Assembly: GCA_016187515.1 (NCBI GenBank)
Contig: JACPJN010000003.1
Coordinates: 1 to 43,236 of the forward strand
Source: Candidatus Uhrbacteria bacterium
GTDB lineage: Bacteria; Patescibacteriota; Patescibacteriia; GWA2-47-26
Direction: 5' to 3'
DNA length: 43,236 nt
The translations under genes were made by a program, and so were the position numbers. Below are positions 6,617 through 42,029 of this stretch, in pieces (position 1 is the first letter of the stretch; each line of letters opens with the position of its first letter). The notes below the pieces were generated by a model, which did no database searches, was not told the DNA's origin, and saw nothing but the letters and a program-made list of their open reading frames with translations.

Positions 6617-6757
6617 GAAAATGCTGAAGAACTAACACCTGCGCAGGTTCACACGAATATTCACGAATAGACGGCCGCCGGAATCGCCGGTTTCCTGCGT
6701 TGTCCTGGCCAGGCGGCCTTACAAATGAACACGAATAATCAATTGTTCAACGGTCTC
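6617..6757 (+). repeat. MITE-like/structured ~140 bp repeat, copy 2
   Basis: gaaaatgctgaagaactaacacctgcgcaggttcacacgaatattcacgaatagacggccgcc...aattgttcaacggtctc. Immediately follows a TATAAT box. Confidence 0.8.
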
Positions 6758-28329: not shown

Positions 28330-28448
28330 GGAAGCAATTCCAACCAAAAGGCGAAGCATAGCGGAGTCCTCCGAGCATGCGGGTGACCCAAACCCGCAGC
28401 CCGCAAGGCGAAGGTATGCCCGTCGAACCAAGAGGAGGAAGAGAGGCC
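28330..28448 (+). promoter_or_regulatory. Conserved structured leader L1 of lipoprotein cassette 1
   Basis: cggaagcaattcc...gcgaagcatagcggagtcctccgagcatgcgggtgacccaaacccgcagcccgcaaggcgaaggtatgcccgtcgaaccaagaggaggaagagaggcc; near-identical to L2 at 30538-30660. Confidence 0.6.
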
Positions 28449-30257
28449 ATGCGAAACAAAGTGAAGTCCGCCGAGTATGCCGGTGCCCCAGACCCGAGCC
28501 CGAAGGGCGGAGGCATGCGCGGCGGTAACAGAGGCGGGCGTACCTTGAAAATCTACCTGGTGGCAAGCGCGTTGTGCGCCGCGCTTACCGGTTGCGGCAA
28601 GCATGACACTCAACCATCCGAATCCGACCAATCCGAGCATGCCTATACAACGGCCGAGATTGACCAGGCGTTGGATAACGCGCGGAAAGCGTTTGAAGCG
28701 CAATATGGGCGCAGTGTTGATGTCACGGTGTGGGAGGATCGCGAGTACTTTCCGCTACTGCTGGATTTGGTGATCCAAAATCTCGCCAGCGATGCTGATT
28801 CTGCCGCGCTTATTCGCCGCCACACGCATCCGAAATACGACGGGGACACCGAATATTGCGGTCCGGGCGCCGGGTTTTGGAATCCGGATCCCGGAGATTG
28901 TCTCAATCATATCTGCGCGATTCACGACGCGTGCTACGAGCAGACGAATCCGGAACTGTCTTTTTGGTGCGTTTGGAGCATTGAAACTGACAAGTGTGAT
29001 CAGGTATTTTTCAAGGAGATTGAGCAATGCCCGAGCCCGGGAGAATGTCGTTCCGGCATTGAGCAGGCCTGCAACTTCTACGCGATCTGGGGGATGGCGC
29101 GCGACCTGAAAAGGATGCAAGGGACCAAGGAAGTACAAGCCCAAGAGGGGTGCGGACTTGAAGCCGAGGCAGAGAGTGAGGCCGAAGGTGAAAGTGAAGT
29201 GGAAGGGGAGGGCGAGGCGGAGAGTGAAGCGGAACATGATGTATGGATGGCGATTTCCACCACTGACGCACCTGCGGCGCGCTACTCCCACACCGCCATC
29301 TGGACCGGGAGTGAAATGGTGGTCTGGGGAGGAGCGGGTGATAGTTCGGGTCTCAACACTGGCGGGCAGTATGATCCGGTGACCAACCGTTGGACCCCGA
29401 CTTACACTGCTGGTGCGCCTGCGGCGCGCGCCCACCACACCGCCATCTGGACCGGGAGTGAAATGCTGGTGTGGGGAGGATACAATAGTTGGACTCTCAA
29501 CACTGGCGGGCAGTATGATCCGGTGACCGGCCGTTGGACCGCGATTCCCACCACTGGCGCGCCTGCGGCGCGCATCTACCACACCGCCGTCTGGACCGGG
29601 AGTGAAATGCTGGTGTGGGGAGGAGCGGATGATAGGTTGCCCTTTCCCCTCAACACTGGCGGGCAGTATGATCCGGTGACCGGCCGTTGGACCGCGATTC
29701 CCGCGCCTGGGGCGCGCTCATTACACACCGCGATCTGGACCGGGAGTGAAATGATAGTGTGGGGAGGAAGGGAGATTGTTATTTTCAACACCGGCGAGCG
29801 ATATGATCCGATCACCAATATCTGGACTGCGATCTCCACCGCCTTTGGCGCGCCCGCGGCGCGCTACTTACACACCGCGATCTGGACCGGGAGTGAAATG
29901 ATAGTGTGGGGAGGAACGGATGATAGCGGTCGTTTCCACACCGGCGATCGATATGATCCGATCACCAATACCTGGACTGCGATTTCCACCGCTGGCGCGC
30001 CTGCAGGGCGCTACTACCACACTGCCATCTGGACCGGCAGTGAAATGCTGGTGTGGGGAGGAGAGGGTGAGGGTGGTAGTATTCTCAACACCGGCGGGCA
30101 GTATGATCCGGCAACCAATACTTGGACATCGACCTCCACTGCTGACGCGCCTGAGGCGCGCACCTACCACACTGCCATCTGGACCGGGAGTGAAATGCTG
30201 GTGTGGGGAGGATATGCTGGCCCGACTTTCAACACCGGCGGGCGGTACCGGCCCTAG
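28449..30257 (+). CDS. Lipoprotein with PLA2-like domain, E/S/A/G-rich linker and 7-repeat kelch-like propeller
   Basis: IYLVASALCAALTGCGK lipobox; YCGPGAGFWNPDPGDCLNHICAIHDACY (HDxCY); EAEAESEAEGESEVEGEGEAESEAEHD; 7x HTAIWTGSEMxVWGG...NTGGQYDP.T..WT. Start could also be 28515 or TTG 28545. Confidence 0.85.
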   Translation: MRNKVKSAEYAGAPDPSPKGGGMRGGNRGGRTLKIYLVASALCAALTGCGKHDTQPSESDQSEHAYTTAEIDQALDNARKAFEAQYGRSVDVTVWEDREYFPLLLDLVIQNLASDADSAALIRRHTHPKYDGDTEYCGPGAGFWNPDPGDCLNHICAIHDACYEQTNPELSFWCVWSIETDKCDQVFFKEIEQCPSPGECRSGIEQACNFYAIWGMARDLKRMQGTKEVQAQEGCGLEAEAESEAEGESEVEGEGEAESEAEHDVWMAISTTDAPAARYSHTAIWTGSEMVVWGGAGDSSGLNTGGQYDPVTNRWTPTYTAGAPAARAHHTAIWTGSEMLVWGGYNSWTLNTGGQYDPVTGRWTAIPTTGAPAARIYHTAVWTGSEMLVWGGADDRLPFPLNTGGQYDPVTGRWTAIPAPGARSLHTAIWTGSEMIVWGGREIVIFNTGERYDPITNIWTAISTAFGAPAARYLHTAIWTGSEMIVWGGTDDSGRFHTGDRYDPITNTWTAISTAGAPAGRYYHTAIWTGSEMLVWGGEGEGGSILNTGGQYDPATNTWTSTSTADAPEARTYHTAIWTGSEMLVWGGYAGPTFNTGGRYRP

Positions 30258-30382: not shown

Positions 30383-30522
30383 GAGAGCGTTGAAGAATTA
30401 ACTCCTGCGCAGTTTACACGAATATCCACGAATAGACGGCCGCCAAAACCGCAGTATTCCGGCGAGGCGCTTACCAGGCGGCCTGACAAATGACCACGAA
30501 TAATTGATTATTCAACGGTCTC
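30383..30522 (+). repeat. MITE-like/structured ~140 bp repeat, copy 4
   Basis: gagagcgttgaagaattaactcctgcgcagtttacacgaatatccacgaatagacggccgcc...attcaacggtctc. Confidence 0.8.
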
Positions 30523-30537
30523 ATGCTATCATTGTAT

Positions 30538-30660
30538 CGGAAGCAATTCCACAACCAAAAAGGCGAAGCATAGCGGAGTCCTCCGAGCATGCGGGTGACC
30601 CAAACCCGCAGCCCGCAGGGCGAAGGTATGCCCGTCGAACCAAGAGGAGGAAGAGAGGCC
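30538..30660 (+). promoter_or_regulatory. Conserved structured leader L2 of lipoprotein cassette 2
   Basis: Near-identical to L1 up to gaggaggaagagaggcc-ATG. Confidence 0.6.
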
Positions 30661-32610
30661 ATGATCCGTACCTTGACAACCAAATTCTTGGCCATCACGG
30701 CCATGCTTACGGCAGGTTGCGAAAAATCCGAGCCGGATTCAACGCCAATCTGCCAAGATGGTGATTACGACGAAGCAGATGTGCGCGAAGCCGTGGAGGA
30801 CGCGGTGGACGCGTTGAAAAAAAGGGGGGAGACGATTGACCCCTCGGTTTGGGACGACCCCGAACGTTTTGAAGCGCTGGTAGAGCAGACCACGGTGGAA
30901 ATGGGTTGCCATCTTGAGGGAAGCCCGTCAGCAGGACAGAGCGGATTTGGCGCGCGCCGCCAGGGCGGATCTCGGGAGTGCGCGGATACCGATGTCAGAG
31001 AGCGATACGAAGACGACAAGATTTATTGCGGTCCGGGAGTCATTGAACGGGACGATTGCGAGTGGCGCTGGCCCGGCGATTGCCTGAACCGTGTCTGCCA
31101 TACCCACGATCTTTGCTATGATCGGACCAGAATTCCGGAGCTTTCTGTCGCCGGCCGTGATCTGGATATTTGCCTTTGGAGCGATGTGACCGCCGAGTGC
31201 GATCTGGAGTTTTTTGAAGGAGAGGGCGATTGTCTTTCCGGGTTTGATTGCGGAATCCGCTGTATGATCACCGGCGCGATTGCCGCAACGCTTCAGGCAT
31301 TGAGCAGAGTGCCGATTACCAGTGGTATCTCTGTAAGCGATGCATGTGTCGTATGCGCCGAAACCGACGCGTGCGAGGTTGATGAAAAAGGGGACGGGAT
31401 GGAGGGGGAGAGCGAGGCGGAAGCCGAATCCGAGGCGGAGAGTGAAGCGGAGGGAGAAGGTGAAGCCGAGGCGGAATCAGAAGCAGAATCGGAAGCAGAG
31501 AGTGAAATGCTAGAGATATGCAATGCCCTTGATGATAATGGTGATGGGAGAATAGATGAAGATTGTTGTAAGGAACCGGGCAGTTGGATCGCGGGACAAA
31601 TTGCAACAGTTGACCGTGGGATAAGCCCCTCGTTCAGCTTTGCGTTTTCCGGTTATCCCAGATTGATTTATCCTAATGCAGGCGTAGATGCAGAATTTGT
31701 ATATACCCATCGGCAGGATCCTGCGGAATGGACCTCAGAAGTTGTGGGTTCTGGTTCTGCCTCAACGTTGAGAGGATACCGGATTGAATCAGATGAAGAT
31801 GGGGGTATCCATATTGCTTGGAAGGTGGCAAATTTGTCTCCTATAAATTATTTGCGGTCACCTGGAGAAGGAAGACCCTGGAGTGAGGAAACTATTACGC
31901 CATCGGGGGGAAGTTCAATTTACTTGAGTGACCTTGCCGTCACTTCAGAAGGTGTTCCGGCTGTAACCTATCGTAATTCATCTACCAACTTTCTGTATTA
32001 TGCAGAAAGGACTGAAGCGGGCGCTTGGGTATCGAACACAATCTCCTTGAATGCTTTGTCGGGTGGGGCCTTAACATTTGATATATCTGACAACCCGCAT
32101 GTTGCCTACTACGTACCGGAGGACGGAGACGGCAGTCTGTATTATAGGACCAGAAATTCCATGGGGGAATGGGCCAGTTCTTTGAGAGTGGCAAGTTTCG
32201 GCGATCTCCGCGGCCCCATAGACATAAAAACGTATGGGGATATCGACGTTCACATTCTCTTTTTCGATCAGCGCCCCGTTTTTGGAGGAGATGCCAATAG
32301 ATTTTATCATGTGGAAGGAAACAGCGGAGGGGCTTGGTCCACGACAGAACTTTCGGACTGGTCAGGACATGTTTGTTCGGTCAGTGCGAGGGGCTCCCTT
32401 GCATTAGATGGTGAAAATGGTGTTCATATAGTACAATCAATGTGCGGGAACATCGATTACGCGACACGCAATCCTGCAGGCGTATGGAGCGAGGAAGATT
32501 TTGAAAGTAGTGGATCGTATGCAGATATTGCAGTTAATCCGGTTACCGGGACACCCGCGATCGTCTATTTTGACGAAGGAGCCATCTGGTATGCTTACCA
32601 GTGTGAATAA
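30661..32610 (+). CDS. Lipoprotein with PLA2-like domain, E/S/A/G-rich linker, MopE-like motif and C-terminal beta-propeller-like domain
   Basis: MIRTLTTKFLAITAMLTAGCEKS lipobox; YCGPGVIERDDCEWRWPGDCLNRVCHTHDLCYD; EGESEAEAESEAESEAEGEGEAEAESEAE; EICNALDDNGDGRIDEDCC. Confidence 0.85.
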   Translation: MIRTLTTKFLAITAMLTAGCEKSEPDSTPICQDGDYDEADVREAVEDAVDALKKRGETIDPSVWDDPERFEALVEQTTVEMGCHLEGSPSAGQSGFGARRQGGSRECADTDVRERYEDDKIYCGPGVIERDDCEWRWPGDCLNRVCHTHDLCYDRTRIPELSVAGRDLDICLWSDVTAECDLEFFEGEGDCLSGFDCGIRCMITGAIAATLQALSRVPITSGISVSDACVVCAETDACEVDEKGDGMEGESEAEAESEAESEAEGEGEAEAESEAESEAESEMLEICNALDDNGDGRIDEDCCKEPGSWIAGQIATVDRGISPSFSFAFSGYPRLIYPNAGVDAEFVYTHRQDPAEWTSEVVGSGSASTLRGYRIESDEDGGIHIAWKVANLSPINYLRSPGEGRPWSEETITPSGGSSIYLSDLAVTSEGVPAVTYRNSSTNFLYYAERTEAGAWVSNTISLNALSGGALTFDISDNPHVAYYVPEDGDGSLYYRTRNSMGEWASSLRVASFGDLRGPIDIKTYGDIDVHILFFDQRPVFGGDANRFYHVEGNSGGAWSTTELSDWSGHVCSVSARGSLALDGENGVHIVQSMCGNIDYATRNPAGVWSEEDFESSGSYADIAVNPVTGTPAIVYFDEGAIWYAYQCE

Positions 32611-32664
32611 AATGGCCACAGTGCCAGGTATCGTGTTGTGTTAGCGACGATAGCAAAAGAGTGG

Positions 32665-32683
32665 CGCTCGTTACCGGCCCTAG
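32665..32683 (+). pseudogene. Fossil kelch C-terminus (ARYRP*) downstream of the stop of cassette 2
   Basis: gcgctcgttaccggccctag = ARYRP* outside any CDS, followed by the same ttcgttcttcaac...ccgccgaggtt tail as the other cassettes. Confidence 0.6.
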
Positions 32684-32699: not shown

Positions 32700-32745
32700 C
32701 TCAACCGCCGAGGTTCCCATTCGGGGAACCCCGGCCTTTTTTTAT
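32700..32745 (+). terminator. Terminator of cassette 2
   Basis: ccgaggttcccattcggggaaccccggccttttttt. Confidence 0.75.
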
Positions 32746-33284: not shown

Positions 33285-33357
33285 GTGTGGATTGTATGGC
33301 AAAAGCAAAATACGGTCTCTTTTTTAGAACTTGACACCATACGCCGTTATTGTTATT
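33285..33357 (+). promoter_or_regulatory. Duplicated promoter block (copy at 34938)
   Basis: gtgtggattgtatggcaaaagcaaaatacggtctcttttttagaacttgacac; TTGACA -35 in both copies. Confidence 0.55.
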
Positions 33358-33383: not shown

Positions 33384-33484
33384 GGAGGCGTAGCGTAGCG
33401 GAGTCCTCCGAGCCTGCGGGTGCCCCAGCGCCGCAGCCCGAAGGGCGAAGGTATGTGCGTCGAACCCAGAGGAGGAAAAAAGCC
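33384..33484 (+). promoter_or_regulatory. Conserved structured leader L3 of lipoprotein cassette 3
   Basis: aagggaggcgtagcgtagcggagtcctccgagcctgcgggtgccccagcgccgcagcccgaagggcgaaggtatgtgcgtcgaacccagaggaggaaaaaagcc. Confidence 0.6.
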
Positions 33485-34684
33485 ATGCGTACCTTGACAA
33501 TGACCGCGTTTTTGCTGGCGTTCTTGACCGCCTGCGGAGGCGGCGACTCAACCACCGCCCCACAGGAAGGTGAGGATGAAGCCGAGGCCGAAGGCGAGGA
33601 AGACGAAGCCGAGACGGAGAGTGAAGTGGAACATGATGTATGGGTGGCGACTTCCACTGAAGGCGCACCGACAGCTCGCCGGCGCCACACCGCCATCTGG
33701 ACCGGGAGTGAAATGATAGTGTGGGGAGGATTGGATAATGGTCGGAATCTGATCAACACCGGCGGGCGGTATGATCCGGAAACCAATACTTGGACCACGA
33801 CTTCTACCTCTGGCGCGCCTGCGGCGCGCAGCGACTACACTGCCATCTGGACTGGGTCGGAAATGATTGTGTGGGGAGGACAAGAGGGATCCAGCCAACT
33901 TAACACCGGCGGGCGGTATGATCCCGTGACCAACTCCTGGACTGCGACCTCCACTGCTGGCGCGCCTGCGGCGCGCTGGTTCCACACCGCCATCTGGACC
34001 GGGTCTGAAATGATGGTGTGGGGCGGATGGAATGAATGGCGTGATTTCATCAACACCGGCGGTCAGTATGATCCGGAGACCAACACTTGGACTGCGACCT
34101 CCACCGCTGGCGCGCCTACCGTGCGTCGTGTACACACCGCGATCTGGACCGGGTCGGAAATGATTGTGTGGGGCGGAGACAGTGATGGTAGTGCGCTTCT
34201 CAACACCGGCGGGCGGTATGATCCGGAAACCAATACTTGGACCACGACTTCTACCTCTGGCGCCCCTGCGGCACGCGAAATCCACACCGCGGTCTGGACC
34301 GGAGAGGAGATGATTGTGTGGGGAGGATGGGATAATGATTGGAATCCGTTCAACACCGGCGGGCGGTATGATCCGGAAACCAATACTTGGACCGAGACCT
34401 CCACCACTGGCGCGCCAGCGACGCGCGTCGGCCACACCGCCATCTGGACCGGCTCCGAGATGATTGTGTGGGGAGGAGAGGCTAGATGGGATGATAGTGC
34501 TTTCAACACCGGCGGGCGGTATGATCCGCTAACCAATACTTGGACTGCGACCTCCACCGCTGGCGCGCCAGCGGCGCGCAGCGACCACACCGTCATCTGG
34601 ACTGGAGATGAGATGATTATGTGGGGAGGGGGAGGATGGGATGAAGATGATCACCTTGACACCGGCGGGCGGTATAGACCCTAG
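33485..34684 (+). CDS. Lipoprotein with acidic linker and 7-repeat kelch-like propeller
   Basis: MRTLTMTAFLLAFLTACGGGDS lipobox; EGEDEAEAEGEEDEAETESEVEHDVW; 7x HTAIWTGSEMIVWGG...NTGGRYDPETNTWT. Confidence 0.88.
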   Translation: MRTLTMTAFLLAFLTACGGGDSTTAPQEGEDEAEAEGEEDEAETESEVEHDVWVATSTEGAPTARRRHTAIWTGSEMIVWGGLDNGRNLINTGGRYDPETNTWTTTSTSGAPAARSDYTAIWTGSEMIVWGGQEGSSQLNTGGRYDPVTNSWTATSTAGAPAARWFHTAIWTGSEMMVWGGWNEWRDFINTGGQYDPETNTWTATSTAGAPTVRRVHTAIWTGSEMIVWGGDSDGSALLNTGGRYDPETNTWTTTSTSGAPAAREIHTAVWTGEEMIVWGGWDNDWNPFNTGGRYDPETNTWTETSTTGAPATRVGHTAIWTGSEMIVWGGEARWDDSAFNTGGRYDPLTNTWTATSTAGAPAARSDHTVIWTGDEMIMWGGGGWDEDDHLDTGGRYRP

Positions 34685-34717: not shown

Positions 34718-34747
34718 GAGGTTTCTTCCCGAACCTCGGCTTTTTAA
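34718..34747 (+). terminator. Terminator of cassette 3
   Basis: ccgaggtttcttcccgaacctcggctttttaatt. Confidence 0.8.
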
Positions 34748-34900
34748 TTTTCCGAGAATTTTAAGTCCGGGGCGCAGAAATTCTGTCGGAAAATTAACCC
34801 GCCAAGTATGCGGGTGCCCCAGGTCCGCAGCGCAGCAAAGGTATGCTCGTCGGCGGGAGCGGCGGGTAACATCTAAAGTGTGCTTCCAAGTCGTCCCGTG
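34747..34900 (+). repeat. Conserved structured spacer L4 (same core as the leaders)
   Basis: ttttccgagaattttaagtccggggcgcagaaattctgtcggaaaattaacccgccaagtatgcgggtgccccaggtccgcagcgcagcaaaggtatgctcgtcggcgggagcggcgggtaac; near-identical copy at 35487. Confidence 0.7.
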
Positions 34901-35063
34901 TTTGGCTCGATCGCGCTAAATGCAAGACGTTTAGGAAATGTGGATTGTATGGCAAAAGCAAAATACGGTCTCTTTTTTAGAACTTGACACAGCACGCTGC
35001 ACTACTAGATGATACACTTGACAAGCTCGCTCGAATATGGTAAGTTGAGTTTAGGAGGAAAAC

Positions 35064-35423
35064 ATGGAAAAACTGACCTGCCAGGCGGCACTTGCCGCAC
35101 TGTTGTTTACCGCTTCCTGCAGAAGCGGAAGCCCGCCCGGAGAGGGTGAGGATGGTGTTGATGGCGAGGCCGAGGCGAGAGCCGAAGCCGAGTCCGATGG
35201 CGACGCGATCCGGACCGGCTTCCAGGGGGTCGTGTGTAACGGAGTGGCTTGCGACTCTGCGTTTTTCAGCGACGAGTGGTACGATCCGGCCACGAACTCC
35301 TGGACTGCGACTTCCGCTGGCCGCTGGATCACCGCCATCTGGACCGGCTCGGAAATGATCGTGTGGAGCGGAAGCGGAGACGATGTCTCTGTCCTCAACA
35401 CCGGCGCTCGTTACCGGCCGTAG
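35064..35423 (+). CDS. Minimal lipoprotein carrying a single degenerate kelch unit
   Basis: LTCQAALAALLFTASCRSGSPPGEGEDGVDGEAEARAEAESDG...WYDPATNSWTATSAGRWITAIWTGSEMIVWSGSGDDVSVLNTGARYRP*. Confidence 0.75.
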   Translation: MEKLTCQAALAALLFTASCRSGSPPGEGEDGVDGEAEARAEAESDGDAIRTGFQGVVCNGVACDSAFFSDEWYDPATNSWTATSAGRWITAIWTGSEMIVWSGSGDDVSVLNTGARYRP

Positions 35424-35452: not shown

Positions 35453-35486
35453 GCCGAGGTTCTCCGCAAACCTCGGCTTTTTTAAT
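35453..35486 (+). terminator. Terminator of cassette 4
   Basis: gccgaggttctccgcaaacctcggcttttttaa. Confidence 0.8.
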
Positions 35487-35638
35487 TTTCCGAGAATTTT
35501 AAGTCCGGGGCGCAGAAATTCTGTCGGAAAATTAACCTGCCAAGTATGCGGGTGCCCCAGGTCCGCAGCGCAGCAAAGGTATGCTCGTCGGCGGGAGCGG
35601 CGGGTAACATCTAAAGTGTGATTTCAAGTCGTCCCGTC
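35487..35638 (+). repeat. Conserved structured spacer L5
   Basis: Near-identical to 34747-34900. Confidence 0.7.
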
Positions 35639-35718
35639 TTACGGTCTATTCTTTAAAACTTGACACAATCTCTGGCACTCTGCTAGATTTAAAGTGGCTA
35701 ACCACCGAGGAGGAAGCC

Positions 35719-37566
35719 ATGACCCTTGAAAATCTGCGATTGAAAATGTTCGGTCTGCTGCCAGCTGTTAGTTTTGCAGCGCTGCTGTATGCCGGGTGCG
35801 ATCGTTCTGATATGAGTTCTTCATCAGGCGGAAGAGAAGGGGAAGCAGAAGGAGAGCGGGACCGGATGGGAGAAAGGCATGAAGATGGCGGGGCAAATGA
35901 CGGCTGTATTCCTGCAACGTATTTTCTGGACAACGATGGAGACGGCTATGGCGCTCCCATGCAGAATTTGGAAGGTTGCATGAAGCCGAAAGGCTATGCC
36001 ACAAATGCAGATGATTGCGATGATGGAAATGAAAATATTTATCCCGGCGCAGAAGAACTCTGCGATGGGCTGGATAATGACTGCAATAGAGAAATTGATG
36101 ATGGTTTAACCGCACCTTCGCAGGAATGTTTTGCCGGCAGAGGGGAATGCCGGCGTGCCGGCCTGGAATACCAGGTTTGCGAAGGCGCAGCCGGATGGAG
36201 TACGGATTATAGAAATTGCGATGCGTCTGCCGGAGAAGCAGCAGCAGAATTGTGTGATGGATTGGATAATGACTGTGATGAAACGAATGACAATAATCTT
36301 ACCAGGCCATCAAGAGAATGTTATATTTCTGTAGCTGGGTGCAGGCGTCCGGGAATGGAGTACCGGGCCTGTGAAGGCGCAGCCGGATGGAGCGCCCAAT
36401 ACCAAAACTGTGAGGCCGATGCGCTTTCGGAAGAAGTATGTGATGCATTGGATAATGATTGCGATGGGTTTATAGATAATCATTGCGCCAGAGAGATCTC
36501 TGCCGGATATCGTGCAACCTGCATGACTTTAGGCGATACTTCTGTCCGCTGCTGGGGGTACAATGGGCTAGGACAGCTCGGAGACGGCACGAACACCGAA
36601 CGCCATACACCCACTCCCGTCTCCGGGCTAAGAGGTGCTGTTGGGATTTCTCTTGGACAACATCACGCCTGCGCTCTATTGGAAGAGGGTTCTGTCCGCT
36701 GCTGGGGCGCGAACTCGTACGGCCAACTGGGAGATGGCACAAGCACCGATAGCTCAGTGGTGCCCATAGCGGCGGTTTCCGGAGTGGGCAGCGCGGTTCA
36801 GCTTTCTGCCGGATTTCATCACACCTGCGCGGTTTTGGAAAACGGTTCTGCCCGATGCTGGGGAAAGAATGAGAACGGCCAACTGGGCAACGGCACAAAT
36901 AATGATGGTGGTCCTACCCCCCCGGTGACTGTTTCCGGACTGGCAGGCATCATTCAAATCTCCGGTGGAGAGAATCACACCTGCGCGGTATCAGCAGATG
37001 GCTCTGCCTATTGTTGGGGGCGTGACCAGTACGGCCGACTGGGTACTGGCTCCAGCGACTATCCGGACCCGCACACTCCCGCATTGATTTCCACTCTTAG
37101 TGATGTTGCTCAAATCAGCGCTGGAATGTGGCACACTTGCGCAGTATCAGCAGACGGCTCTGCCTATTGCTGGGGTGCGAACCCGTACGGCCAACTGGGC
37201 AATGGCTCAGCCTACCTATTCAGACCAAGTGACTCCACGCCAGGATTGGTTTCCGAGCTGGAAGATGCCTCCCAAATCACTGCCGGAGATGAACATACCT
37301 GCGCTTTATTGGGAGACGGCTCTGCCCGCTGCTGGGGGTACAACATAGCTGGCCGGCTCGGCGACGGGACGGTCATAGACCGCTATACACCCGTCGCGGT
37401 TTTTGGACTTAGTGATGCTGTCAGGCTTTCTACCGGAAGTGCCCACACCTGCGCAGTTTTAGAAGACGGTTCTGCCCGCTGCTGGGGGAACAACTCGTAC
37501 GGCCAACTGGGAGATGGCACGACGCAAAGTCGAACTACCCCCGTGGAAGTGGTATGGACGGAATAA
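35719..37566 (+). CDS. Lipoprotein with MopE-like metal-binding repeats and 7-repeat RCC1-like propeller
   Basis: LLPAVSFAALLYAGCDRS lipobox; ELCDGLDNDCNREIDDGL, ELCDGLDNDCDETNDNNL, EVCDALDNDCDGFIDNHC; 7x SARCWGxNxxGQLGDGT. Confidence 0.9.
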   Translation: MTLENLRLKMFGLLPAVSFAALLYAGCDRSDMSSSSGGREGEAEGERDRMGERHEDGGANDGCIPATYFLDNDGDGYGAPMQNLEGCMKPKGYATNADDCDDGNENIYPGAEELCDGLDNDCNREIDDGLTAPSQECFAGRGECRRAGLEYQVCEGAAGWSTDYRNCDASAGEAAAELCDGLDNDCDETNDNNLTRPSRECYISVAGCRRPGMEYRACEGAAGWSAQYQNCEADALSEEVCDALDNDCDGFIDNHCAREISAGYRATCMTLGDTSVRCWGYNGLGQLGDGTNTERHTPTPVSGLRGAVGISLGQHHACALLEEGSVRCWGANSYGQLGDGTSTDSSVVPIAAVSGVGSAVQLSAGFHHTCAVLENGSARCWGKNENGQLGNGTNNDGGPTPPVTVSGLAGIIQISGGENHTCAVSADGSAYCWGRDQYGRLGTGSSDYPDPHTPALISTLSDVAQISAGMWHTCAVSADGSAYCWGANPYGQLGNGSAYLFRPSDSTPGLVSELEDASQITAGDEHTCALLGDGSARCWGYNIAGRLGDGTVIDRYTPVAVFGLSDAVRLSTGSAHTCAVLEDGSARCWGNNSYGQLGDGTTQSRTTPVEVVWTE

Positions 37567-37618
37567 GGGATAAAAAATGGAGAGGTGAAAAATCCCTCGA
37601 GATCGGGGTTTTGGTCTC

Positions 37619-37642
37619 ACCGGCGCTCGCTACCGTCCGTAG
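37619..37642 (+). pseudogene. Fossil kelch C-terminus (TGARYRP*) downstream of the RCC1 gene stop
   Basis: accggcgctcgctaccgtccgtag = TGARYRP* about 50 bp after the RCC1 stop codon, followed by the cassette tail and terminator. Confidence 0.65.
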
Positions 37643-37663
37643 TTCTTTCGATCTCAACCCAAC

Positions 37664-37696
37664 CGCCGAGGTTTTCCCAACCTCGGCTTTTTTTAT
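37664..37696 (+). terminator. Terminator of cassette 5
   Basis: ccgaggttttcccaacctcggcttttttta. Confidence 0.8.
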
Positions 37697-38174
37697 TAAG
37701 GAGTTAAGTAAAATAATAAAAAAGCCCCGCATTTGGATGGGGGCGGGGAAAAGGGGGGGTGCCGGGATTTTAACAAAGGCGATTGAATTTCAGGTATTGA
37801 CAGATCTTGCCTATATATTATAGGATAAAAGTAGGATGCGAATAAGCTATGAATAAATGTATGAACGGCAGCATTTTTACCAATTCAATGAAATTGGAAT
37901 ACCGCGAGCATCGGATTATTAAAGCGGGTATATTTGATATTCCGCGGGTTGCTGGATAAGATGGTTGGTGTGTAAAGATCTGACAAAGTAAGTAGGCATA
38001 AATAAAATCCCGCGGGAAGTCCGTGGGATTTTCGCTAAATTTGGAGATTGCAGGGTATGATTCTGGAATCGTTCAGGATTATAGCCAGCACTCTCTTCAC
38101 AAAATTGGAGGAGTGCGTGCACTTTGACAATTAAGGGCTTTACAAAGCCAAGAAATCAGTAAAGGAGGACGAGC

Positions 38175-41100
38175 ATGCATCCTAAGCTCAATTCAGCATA
38201 CCAAAGCGCGTTTGCGATACTGGTTTTTGGATACATCGGTCAACCGCGTTCGGCCGAAGCATGTTCCGTAGTGTTTCCGAGCGAAGTGCCGACTGGAGCG
38301 AGTTTTGACATAGAAGTTCACCACACTCTCCCAAGCGTGAGTTGGCACGGACAATTTGTTGCCCGCGCATCAGTAGGGGTTCCAACACGCACCGGCGATC
38401 GTCAATGCATTGACGATCGTTATGTCGGACCGTATTGTTCCGTGATTAATGTCCGCGCTCCTGCAACGGCGGGTTTGTTCGCCATTGAGGTGGAATGCGG
38501 AGTGGAAGATTGTGATGGTAGCGGTACAAGGTGGCTTGATACCGAGTGGGCGACGATCGAAGCCGGAGACAGATGGCGCGGGTCAAGTTCGCGCACCTGT
38601 CCGTCAACCGGGCGTGAGTGTTCCTGTTCAGATTGTGATCCGCACTCCGACCTGGATTACGATGCCTACAATATCGTTTCCGGTCGCGCCCGCGCCGGCG
38701 AGGAGTTCCGCTTTGAACTCCGGATCTGCAATGTCGGCGACGGTCTGTGCGAGATTGATACGGTTGATCTTAACCGTGACAGCGGGCCGAGTGTTTCGTG
38801 GGGCGACGACGAAGAGGCCAGCGATGAGGATTTGGGTCCGGGCGATTGCTCCTGGGTTGGCGATCCGTTTTGCCTAACCGCGAATTCAGACGGTCGTCTC
38901 TGGATTGAGATTGACGTTGAAAGCGATACTGACGGGGATTGGTACCGCGATGTAGATTCGTTCTACATTGACATTGAAAGATCTGATCCCTGTGCCGGCG
39001 TGGTATGTTCCGATATCTGCAGCGGCTCCTCGCTCATCACCAGTCGCACGTGTTCTGGCGGAGCATGCGGCGGCGGAGTAGGTACAAATTGCGCTTGGGG
39101 TTGTTCTACTTCCGGTGGCGCGCATTGCAATCCGGATCCGTGTGCCGGACGCGTGTGCTCCGGCGGTTGTCCGAATACCTGTAGTGGTTCTACTCTCATC
39201 ACCGGGCGCGTTTGCAATTGTGGGTCCTGTACCGGTGGTACGGGTACAAGCTGTGCTTGGGGATGTACAGGTACGGGCGCCAATACGCGGTGCCGTCCCA
39301 ATCCTTGTGCCGGGGTGGTTTGCCCCGCAGGATGTACGGGAAATACGCGGCGCTCTAACGGAAGGCCGGTGGTAAGGAGCGACACTAGCTGCGAGTGCGT
39401 GTACGATACTCTGGATTGCGCTACCCTCAACAATGTGGGTGCGAGCAGTCAGTATTGTTGCGGCGAAAATGCCTGTTCTCGCGAGTTGGAAACGAGCTAC
39501 GCTTGCTCGGCCGGTTTGTGCCAGGTTGACCAAACTCGGTGGGTGAACGAGCGCGTGGAGTTTGCCTGCGAGAACATGGACACTGCGCCGGAAACATCCT
39601 TGTACTGTTCCGGGAATGACGTGCGCGGAGTAGATCGTTTCATGGATTACTCGTGTAATCCGGAAACGATTACGTGTGTAGGGGAACCAACCGAAGCAGA
39701 CGACCGATTGGTTGAGCGCTGTCCGTACGGCTGCGCTGATTCCGGTGGCGCGCATTGTAACCCAAACCCATGCGCCGGAGTAACCTGCCCCGCAGGTTGT
39801 GTAGCCGGCAATGTGCGCCGGTATAACGGTACGCCAGTGGTCAGCGGCGGATCCTGCCGGTGTGATTACGAATCGCAGGACTGCGATGATCTGGATAATG
39901 CCGGGGTACGAGAGGAGTATTGCTCCGGCAGTGATGTTTGGTCGCATTACTGGTATACCGACTATGGATGCAGTGGTAGCGGATCGTGCGCCATCTCAAG
40001 TCAATCCTGGTCAGACAGCCGGCTGGAGGAAACTTGTGCAGGTCGCGGCTGTTTAGACCGTGGCGGCGCGCATTGTAACCGTCCCCCTACGCTGGTCGTG
40101 CGGCGAGTGGGAGAGGAGGAACCGTTGGCGGATGGATCGGTGATTGAGATGACAACCGGCGATCTGGTTGAACTTGAAACCTCGGCCAGTTTTGACCCTG
40201 ACGGAAATGCACTGACTTTTCGTTGGTTTGTGGATGAAGAGGATGTGACACCGGATGAAGCGGAGCGTTTCTCCTGGCAGACATTTTCTCCAGGTCAATT
40301 CCGGCTTCGCGTTCGGGTTACCGATGGGTTGACCGAAGTTGATCAGGAGTTTGATCTAGTTGCATATCTCGACGATATTGCGGCTCATTGGGATGGGTCA
40401 CGCAATATACGCACGTTTGAGATTACGCTACCTTCAAACGGCACGATCAATTACGGGTTTTATACACCCAGCGGACTGGATGACTTCTCAATAACCCTTG
40501 ATTTGGATGGTCTGTGGTCGCAATTCCCATTTGACGATGTCGGGATGTGGGTTGATCCTCCAGATCAAGTTCCTTGGTTCGGACATGTCAACGACTGGCC
40601 ATTGTTTGACCGGGTGCAATTCCGGCGTCAAGATACCCCGGACGGGAATTGGGGCCTAGAGGTGGTTACCGGCTTCACGCTGTCGCATAATGCCACTCTG
40701 GAGTTCGCATACGACTGGCCATACCCGGATCCGCCCGGACACTTTTTATCCTCGTGTGCATGGGGATTGGTATCCGGTAAATGCGCCGACGACCTGGATT
40801 GCATCGATTGTGCGTTGGGTGGAGTGGCCCTGGTGGTTTTGGTTCCGATAGATGAGGCGCAAGACGCGATCAACTTCGTGGTCAACGCGGTCGTGGCCTC
40901 CTGGAACACCAGCGAGGGATTGGCGGCGTACATACTCTATCGCGATCCGGATGCGTTTGATGACGCCGTGCGATATTGGATCGCGAGCGGGTTGTCGGTC
41001 GTTAACTTCGTGGTCGTTATTGATGTTGGGTTTGTTCGTTATCTTGATAACATTCCGCAGTCCGCAGAATGGTTGCGGCGGTTCGGTTTCCTTACCGACG

Positions 41101-42029
41101 ATATGGTTCGCCGATTTGGGGATGGTCTTCCGGAGATCGTTGGCAATGATCGCGGTCTTCGGAGAGTGTTTAATCGGCGCGCGGCCACGATTCCGGAAGG
41201 AATGCCGGATTGGGAAAAGGACAGCTTCATCGCACTCGTTGATGAGGTTGATCCGCTTTGGACGCGCGCTGTGCGAGACGGGAAAGATACGCTTTCTTCG
41301 GGAGAGCGCGGTATCTTCCGAGAGCGTTTTACCCAGCTTCATGCGCGCTCCCGCGGCTTGCAGCCGATTCGGATGGGGAGCGCGAGCCCAACTGGTCCGC
41401 TTACCAATCAGCGCATCACGCACATCGGCGGGCGTTCTCTCGGTACTGATATTGATTATGCACTCCAGCACGAAGATGGGACGCTTTACCTTTTTTTCGT
41501 TGCGGGTGATAACGCTGTAGCGGGAGGACGCGCCCACAATCTCGGGGAGATCGAGCAGGTGCAGAGATTCTTTAGCGCAAACTCTGACCTTGCCACGCAG
41601 TTTCCGAACCGGGTGTATGTAAGCTGGGCAGGCACGCGCCGGGCTTCGTTGGGTACGGTGGAAACTTTTGTGGAAGTAACGAGTCGCGCAGTAGAGGAGA
41701 ATGAGGAAAAACCGGATTGGCTAGATCCGTCCGATCCTCGGCTTGTTCCGGTGGGAAGCGTGGATGGCGGAGCCGCGGTATGCAGTCGTATTTGTTTCTC
41801 CGGTTCGGAGCAGGAAAGCGACTGCGGCAATTACTTCGGAGCGTGCGAAAATCTTCCGGGCAAGGTGTATTCGTGCGAGATGGTCGCGTGTGATGTGGGA
41901 CCGCCGCCGATGCCTGACGGGTGTGATTGTCGCGCGGGTCAGAATTCCGGAAACGATGTTCCTTTCGTGTTCTTTGTGTCTACGCTGGGCGTATTGTGCT
42001 GGCGAATGAGGCGTAGGCGCATTCGTTAG
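38175..42029 (+). CDS. 1284-aa secreted Cys-rich protein with PKD-like domain and C-terminal TM plus Arg-rich sorting-like tail
   Basis: SD aaaggagg; N-terminal hydrophobic signal; repeated NPCAGVxCPAGC/CAWGC; PKD-like TGDLVELETSASFDPDGNALTFRWFVD; C-terminus CDCRAGQNSGNDVPFVFFVSTLGVLCWRMRRRRIR. Confidence 0.85.
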   Translation: MHPKLNSAYQSAFAILVFGYIGQPRSAEACSVVFPSEVPTGASFDIEVHHTLPSVSWHGQFVARASVGVPTRTGDRQCIDDRYVGPYCSVINVRAPATAGLFAIEVECGVEDCDGSGTRWLDTEWATIEAGDRWRGSSSRTCPSTGRECSCSDCDPHSDLDYDAYNIVSGRARAGEEFRFELRICNVGDGLCEIDTVDLNRDSGPSVSWGDDEEASDEDLGPGDCSWVGDPFCLTANSDGRLWIEIDVESDTDGDWYRDVDSFYIDIERSDPCAGVVCSDICSGSSLITSRTCSGGACGGGVGTNCAWGCSTSGGAHCNPDPCAGRVCSGGCPNTCSGSTLITGRVCNCGSCTGGTGTSCAWGCTGTGANTRCRPNPCAGVVCPAGCTGNTRRSNGRPVVRSDTSCECVYDTLDCATLNNVGASSQYCCGENACSRELETSYACSAGLCQVDQTRWVNERVEFACENMDTAPETSLYCSGNDVRGVDRFMDYSCNPETITCVGEPTEADDRLVERCPYGCADSGGAHCNPNPCAGVTCPAGCVAGNVRRYNGTPVVSGGSCRCDYESQDCDDLDNAGVREEYCSGSDVWSHYWYTDYGCSGSGSCAISSQSWSDSRLEETCAGRGCLDRGGAHCNRPPTLVVRRVGEEEPLADGSVIEMTTGDLVELETSASFDPDGNALTFRWFVDEEDVTPDEAERFSWQTFSPGQFRLRVRVTDGLTEVDQEFDLVAYLDDIAAHWDGSRNIRTFEITLPSNGTINYGFYTPSGLDDFSITLDLDGLWSQFPFDDVGMWVDPPDQVPWFGHVNDWPLFDRVQFRRQDTPDGNWGLEVVTGFTLSHNATLEFAYDWPYPDPPGHFLSSCAWGLVSGKCADDLDCIDCALGGVALVVLVPIDEAQDAINFVVNAVVASWNTSEGLAAYILYRDPDAFDDAVRYWIASGLSVVNFVVVIDVGFVRYLDNIPQSAEWLRRFGFLTDDMVRRFGDGLPEIVGNDRGLRRVFNRRAATIPEGMPDWEKDSFIALVDEVDPLWTRAVRDGKDTLSSGERGIFRERFTQLHARSRGLQPIRMGSASPTGPLTNQRITHIGGRSLGTDIDYALQHEDGTLYLFFVAGDNAVAGGRAHNLGEIEQVQRFFSANSDLATQFPNRVYVSWAGTRRASLGTVETFVEVTSRAVEENEEKPDWLDPSDPRLVPVGSVDGGAAVCSRICFSGSEQESDCGNYFGACENLPGKVYSCEMVACDVGPPPMPDGCDCRAGQNSGNDVPFVFFVSTLGVLCWRMRRRRIR

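Follow-up and report, generated by a model that had tools for sequence, protein, structure and literature searches.

When one fold takes the place of another under a single promoter and terminator, the evidence usually comes from domain trees. In Mycoplasma genitalium, expressed surface-protein genes recombine with partial copies (mgpC/MgPar; PMC2169797), and for the surface proteins of Porphyromonas gingivalis both domain rearrangement and allelic exchange have been shown by strain comparison (PMC5266723). At the locus described here, an RCC1-type gene (g5) is followed by an untranslated stub that would belong to the old gene and would mark the 3' breakpoint of such a replacement, and in the surrounding array g2 is a second case and g4 a decayed copy.

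The lipoprotein gene array and its repeats

The window that we analysed is the entire 43,236-bp contig C2 of a 1.215-Mb genome in 10 contigs, a size that hints at a reduced bacterium of Patescibacteria-like kind. Five lipoprotein-like genes, g1 to g5, form an array from 28.3 to 37.7 kb of this contig, with the following features:

28449..30257, + strand: g1, lipoprotein with an N-terminal domain shared with g2 and a kelch propeller; live end TGGRYRP*
30661..32610, + strand: g2, lipoprotein whose N-terminal domain is a homologue of the g1 domain and whose C-terminal part is non-kelch, with a weak BNR-like match
32660..32683, + strand: second untranslated kelch remnant, reading SGARYRP-stop and located 49 nt past the g2 stop
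33485..34684, + strand: g3, kelch lipoprotein; live end TGGRYRP*
35064..35423, + strand: g4, reduced kelch gene of about one and a half repeats; live end TGARYRP*
35479..35640, + strand: g4-g5 spacer, 97.5% identical over 162 nt to the g3-g4 spacer (34741-34902)
35655..35721, + strand: g5 head of kelch type, comprising -35 box, 5' UTR, ribosome-binding site and ATG, from alignment with the kelch gene on contig C6
35719..37566, + strand: g5, lipoprotein-like ORF encoding MopE-type metal-binding motifs together with an RCC1 propeller of 7 repeats
37567..37618, + strand: 3' flank of g5, unrelated to array DNA, with only a self-match in blastn and a weak hairpin at 37595-37608
37619..37642, + strand: untranslated remnant of a kelch C-terminus (TGARYRP-stop), from motif counts and similarity to the g4 end
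37643..37697, + strand: 3' UTR of kelch type with an intrinsic terminator (hairpin 37665-37687), aligning with g3 and g4

The N-terminal domain of the g1/g2 type carries a phospholipase-A2-like CGPG...HDxCY signature, read by eye. The product of g4 is a 119-aa remnant of a kelch lipoprotein in which signal, frame and C-terminus are all intact. Identical 52-nt promoter segments (gtggattgtatggcaaaagcaaaatacggtctcttttttagaacttgacac) precede g3 and g4, at about 33286-33341 and 34936-34990. Beyond the array, positions 38175-42029 encode a 1284-aa Cys-rich secreted protein that is absent from six relatives searched.

Two interspersed repeats were also observed. The first is a 77-nt structured element in the leaders before g1, g2 and g3 (28364-28440, 30576-30652 and 33401-33477), where its 3' arm is the ribosome-binding site; more copies lie at 28464-28539, 34795-34867 and 35533-35605, on contigs C1, C4, C5, C6, C7 and C10, and in the genomes G001 and G002. 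Its closing stem covaries, being either CCTCC/GGAGG or CCGCC/GGCGG. A covariance model built on six copies matched this genome 16 times, G001 5 times and G002 7 times, with one marginal match in G016 and none in the other 24 relatives searched, and the element is present in all three genomes of the family. In an enlarged set, 91% of cells were paired as opposed to at most about 50% in slid controls, and 7 pairs had changed on both sides as opposed to 3.1 in shuffles, which supports the pairing, although the alignment had been fitted to the covariance model and is thereby biased towards the structure. No Rfam match to the element was obtained. Many copies lie between genes or overlap the start of one: in G002, one (L105:1501-1567) overlaps the start of a pilin-like gene and would encode ...GGTRGG before the FTLVELL hydrophobic stretch, and another (L108:1501-1563) overlaps the start of a similar gene and would encode ...GGARGG before YSLLLAL. 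Because of these positions, the pilin-like start included, the element looks like a lineage-specific interspersed palindromic repeat that is sometimes recruited as a leader, rather than a riboswitch. The second repeat has a palindromic core (ACGAATAATTGATTATTC). Copies lie at 206-281, 6682-6757 and 30447-30522, and an inverted one precedes the C6 kelch gene; a stretch of about 130 nt ahead of g2 is 94% identical to the C6 region, in the opposite orientation.

The kelch remnant behind the RCC1 gene

The initial annotation had reported the peptide TGARYRP* about 50 bp past the RCC1 stop and taken it for a fossil kelch C-terminus followed by the cassette tail. The string was confirmed. The 24 bases concerned, accggcgctcgctaccgtccgtag, occupy 37619-37642, 52 nt past the g5 stop (TAA, 37564-37566), and are directly followed by TTCTTTCGATCTCAACCCAACC and then by the terminator hairpin at 37665-37687 with its T run. 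Over 25 nt (37618-37642) this sequence is 92% identical to the live end of g4. When GGCGSNCGNTAYMGNCCNTAGTTC was searched with up to three mismatches, five places in the window were found, all of them exact (mean 0.02 in 100 dinucleotide shuffles), and the protein-level pattern G[A/G]RYRP-TAG, on both strands, was confined to the same five. The looser pattern GGCGNNCGNTAYN{5,9}TAGYTC matched nine times in the whole genome, compared with once for the reversed control pattern, and had zero matches in four relatives. These nine copies comprise five in the window, three on contig C4 and one on C6. Seven of them form, in frame, the last codons of a kelch lipoprotein gene, namely of g1, g3 and g4 and of the four genes on C4 and C6, which end in RYTP, RYTPP, RYTPP and RYVP; the remaining two lie untranslated behind g2 and g5.

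The kelch lipoprotein family is recognised by the C-terminus GG[RQ]YxP(P)-stop, which is found behind g5 as the TGARYRP variant. Kelch proteins of G002, from the same family of genomes, and of G020, from another family, end in GGRYTPP* and GGQYTPP*; since kelch proteins of two other genera share the ending GG[RQ]YTPP*, the coding state is taken as ancestral and the untranslated state as derived. Behind g5 the frame of the remnant reads G*KMER*KIPRDRGFGLTGARYRP*, so that with two stops upstream, no start codon and a frame other than that of RCC1, the tail is not normally translatable. With seven other motif copies at live kelch ends, similar endings in other genera and a closed frame, the fossil reading is well supported, and the string behind g5 is almost certainly a dead kelch C-terminus. 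That it should be a readthrough or frameshift extension of the RCC1 protein, or the product of a sequencing or assembly error that split one ORF, is scarcely credible. The intact peptide sequence of the tail would fit such an origin, but the 52 intervening nt are unrelated as well as the frame being wrong and closed by two further stops, the RCC1 domain is already complete without the tail, and g2 has the identical layout.

The similarity of the g5 module to those of g3 and g4 begins at 37618 and stops at 37692-37697, and 0 of 1000 mononucleotide shuffles scored as high; the 3' UTR and terminator typical of the kelch lipoprotein family are thus found at 37618-37697. From this comparison, a putative 3' breakpoint between the unrelated flank and the kelch tail can be placed at about 37613-37619, inside the interval 37560-37620 that the initial annotation had proposed to test for a recombination breakpoint. 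Could the RYRP-TAG-TTC region instead be a functional 3' UTR element, kept for RNA processing, stability or termination, with an incidental overlap with kelch codons? The TAG-YTC and the hairpin that follows are well kept, and folding of the g5 module is slightly more favourable than that of shuffles (z -2.35). Yet the stable pairing sits in the terminator, outside the 24 nt, the centroid folds differ among the g2, g4 and g5 tails, the differences between tails track codon third positions, and elsewhere in the genome there are zero copies behind unrelated genes. We consider such a role very improbable. A conserved 3' element behind unrelated genes, which the initial annotation had named as the finding that would speak against its fossil reading, was not seen outside g2 and g5 in this genome and four relatives, nor did longer DNA matches in 56 relatives reveal one. 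No kelch remnant was found after RCC1 genes of other genomes, and no Rfam family reached the gathering threshold in the window, the array elsewhere giving only weak spurious miRNA matches. A scan of a collection of genome contigs returned two single matches, in a Myxococcales MAG and an Oscillospiraceae MAG, which is near chance level for the pattern.

The tails of g2, g4 and g5 have the GAR variant in common, while every other copy in the genome has GGR, and this shared derived variant places the three tails in one sub-lineage. They differ from one another by three changes, all three synonymous (random expectation 18/63, p about 0.02). This suggests, from three changes, that most of the divergence among these tails arose while they were still translated.

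The terminator behind g2 (32707-32745) and the one of the C6 kelch gene are identical over 39 nt apart from a single inserted base. The leader of g2 is 94% identical to that of g1 over 140 nt, and the N-terminal domains of the two proteins are 30% identical over 248 aa (E 1e-19). The C-terminal body of g2 is single-copy in the genome, and a structure search with g2 gave no PDB match. In G001, of the same family, the lipoprotein L070 combines a homologue of the g1/g2 N-terminal domain with MopE repeats and a further non-kelch domain; since this homologue has another C-terminal part, change behind a kept N-terminus is recurrent. The g5 case had been described as independent of that of g2. This holds for the bodies and the gap sequences, which are unrelated, and for the terminators, which are of different types; the GAR variant in both tails speaks against full independence.

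Probable replacement of the gene body at g5

The g5 protein matches WD40_RLD (1.4e-87), RCC1 (6.5e-66) and Cu-binding_MopE (2.8e-15) in Pfam. Its RCC1 repeats form seven stretches, as in RCC1-repeat proteins, and kelch repeats are absent (RCC1 and MopE only), so that g5 is not itself a member of the kelch family. It is the sole RCC1 gene of the genome. The nearest relatives of its RCC1 body within the class are 33-49% identical, and no donor was found among 381 genomes of the class. At the DNA level, the body and the 52-nt 3' flank match the array genes only in short MopE-motif stretches, besides their own repeats. The head, in contrast to this unrelated body, is of kelch type: 33 nt align with the C6 kelch gene through the ATG with a score of 37, which 0 of 3000 mononucleotide shuffles reached, and as a control the regions upstream of 14 further genes of the window scored at most 18. 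An unrelated ORF thus stands between a start of kelch type and the stub of a kelch gene.

Replacement of the body by recombination, as proposed initially, is probably the best explanation of this layout. An array unit would then act as a frame, with spacer, promoter and ribosome-binding site in front and a kelch C-terminus and terminator behind. A kelch-propeller lipoprotein gene would formerly have occupied the g5 locus, and the remnant would be its last seven codons and stop. Recombination would have swapped the kelch ORF, from its start codon to its last codons, for a complete MopE-RCC1 ORF, which would have carried along its own stop and about 50 bp of native 3' flank. As a result, g5 would run from a kelch-type promoter to a kelch-type terminator, the kelch end persisting as untranslated 3' UTR. 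At g2, recombination would have replaced the C-terminal part only, instead of the whole ORF as at g5. We infer the former kelch gene, its replacement in a single recombination and the order of events; direction and mechanism stay at this level because neither an RCC1 donor nor an ancestral allele was found. No relative with a kelch gene at the g5 locus was found: in G001 and G002, of the same family, the array is absent next to GAPDH. Only about 24 nt of a kelch body survive at g5. We also considered insertion into a kelch gene without loss, which would leave a tail-less kelch body beside g2 or g5, and none was seen.

In an alternative scenario, an RCC1 gene already present in the array acquired a copy of a kelch C-terminus at its 3' side, and with it the family terminator, through gene conversion or unequal exchange. 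Several points favour this. The block of remnant and terminator is compact (37618-37697, about 75 bp) and ends at the T run, as it does at g2, and a weak hairpin belonging to g5 itself lies ahead of the remnant. Exchange of flanks among the array genes is also clear, with leaders 94-99% identical as against about 30% for N-terminal domains. This scenario would, however, leave both the g1/g2 pair and the kelch-type head, which extends through the ATG, to be explained separately, the 52-nt flank offers no seed homology to guide conversion, and the spacer found after g3 and g4 is missing after g5. We therefore regard it as unlikely and prefer replacement of the body.

Comparison with known systems

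The probable replacement of the body at g5 clearly illustrates an evolutionary process that is already known, and not a new kind of system. No relevant paper on kelch or propeller lipoproteins of Patescibacteria was found in the literature. It seems very unlikely that the array serves this bacterium, with its very small genome, for active exchange in which whole kelch, RCC1 and BNR-like propeller bodies are repeatedly swapped in conserved front and back frames, altering the cell surface. If body swapping is common in surface lipoproteins of these small-genome bacteria, stubs of this kind would be a simple search signal.

As in mgpC/MgPar (PMC2169797), the setting is a small genome in which related copies recombine into surface-protein variants, with conserved stretches flanking variable ones. 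There, the products are variants of one protein and silent partial copies stay, whereas here an unrelated fold would replace the body. Silent donors of the MgPar kind are absent, the RCC1 and g2 C-terminal bodies being single-copy in the one genome compared. The array resembles the Porphyromonas gingivalis system (PMC5266723) in that domains of surface proteins are swapped between otherwise conserved genes; that exchange was seen by comparing strains, while here it is inferred from one genome via an untranslated stub. Integron gene cassettes have attC sites and an integron integrase; the repeated 3' part of this array consists of an intrinsic terminator and kelch codons. The array also resembles ordinary tandem gene-family evolution by duplication, gene conversion and domain shuffling: its paralogues stand in tandem, leaders and spacers are homogenised, g4 is decayed and domain architectures are mixed. 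What sets it apart from ordinary tandem families is the leftover C-terminal codons behind two apparently replaced genes, which make the 3' breakpoint unusually easy to see.
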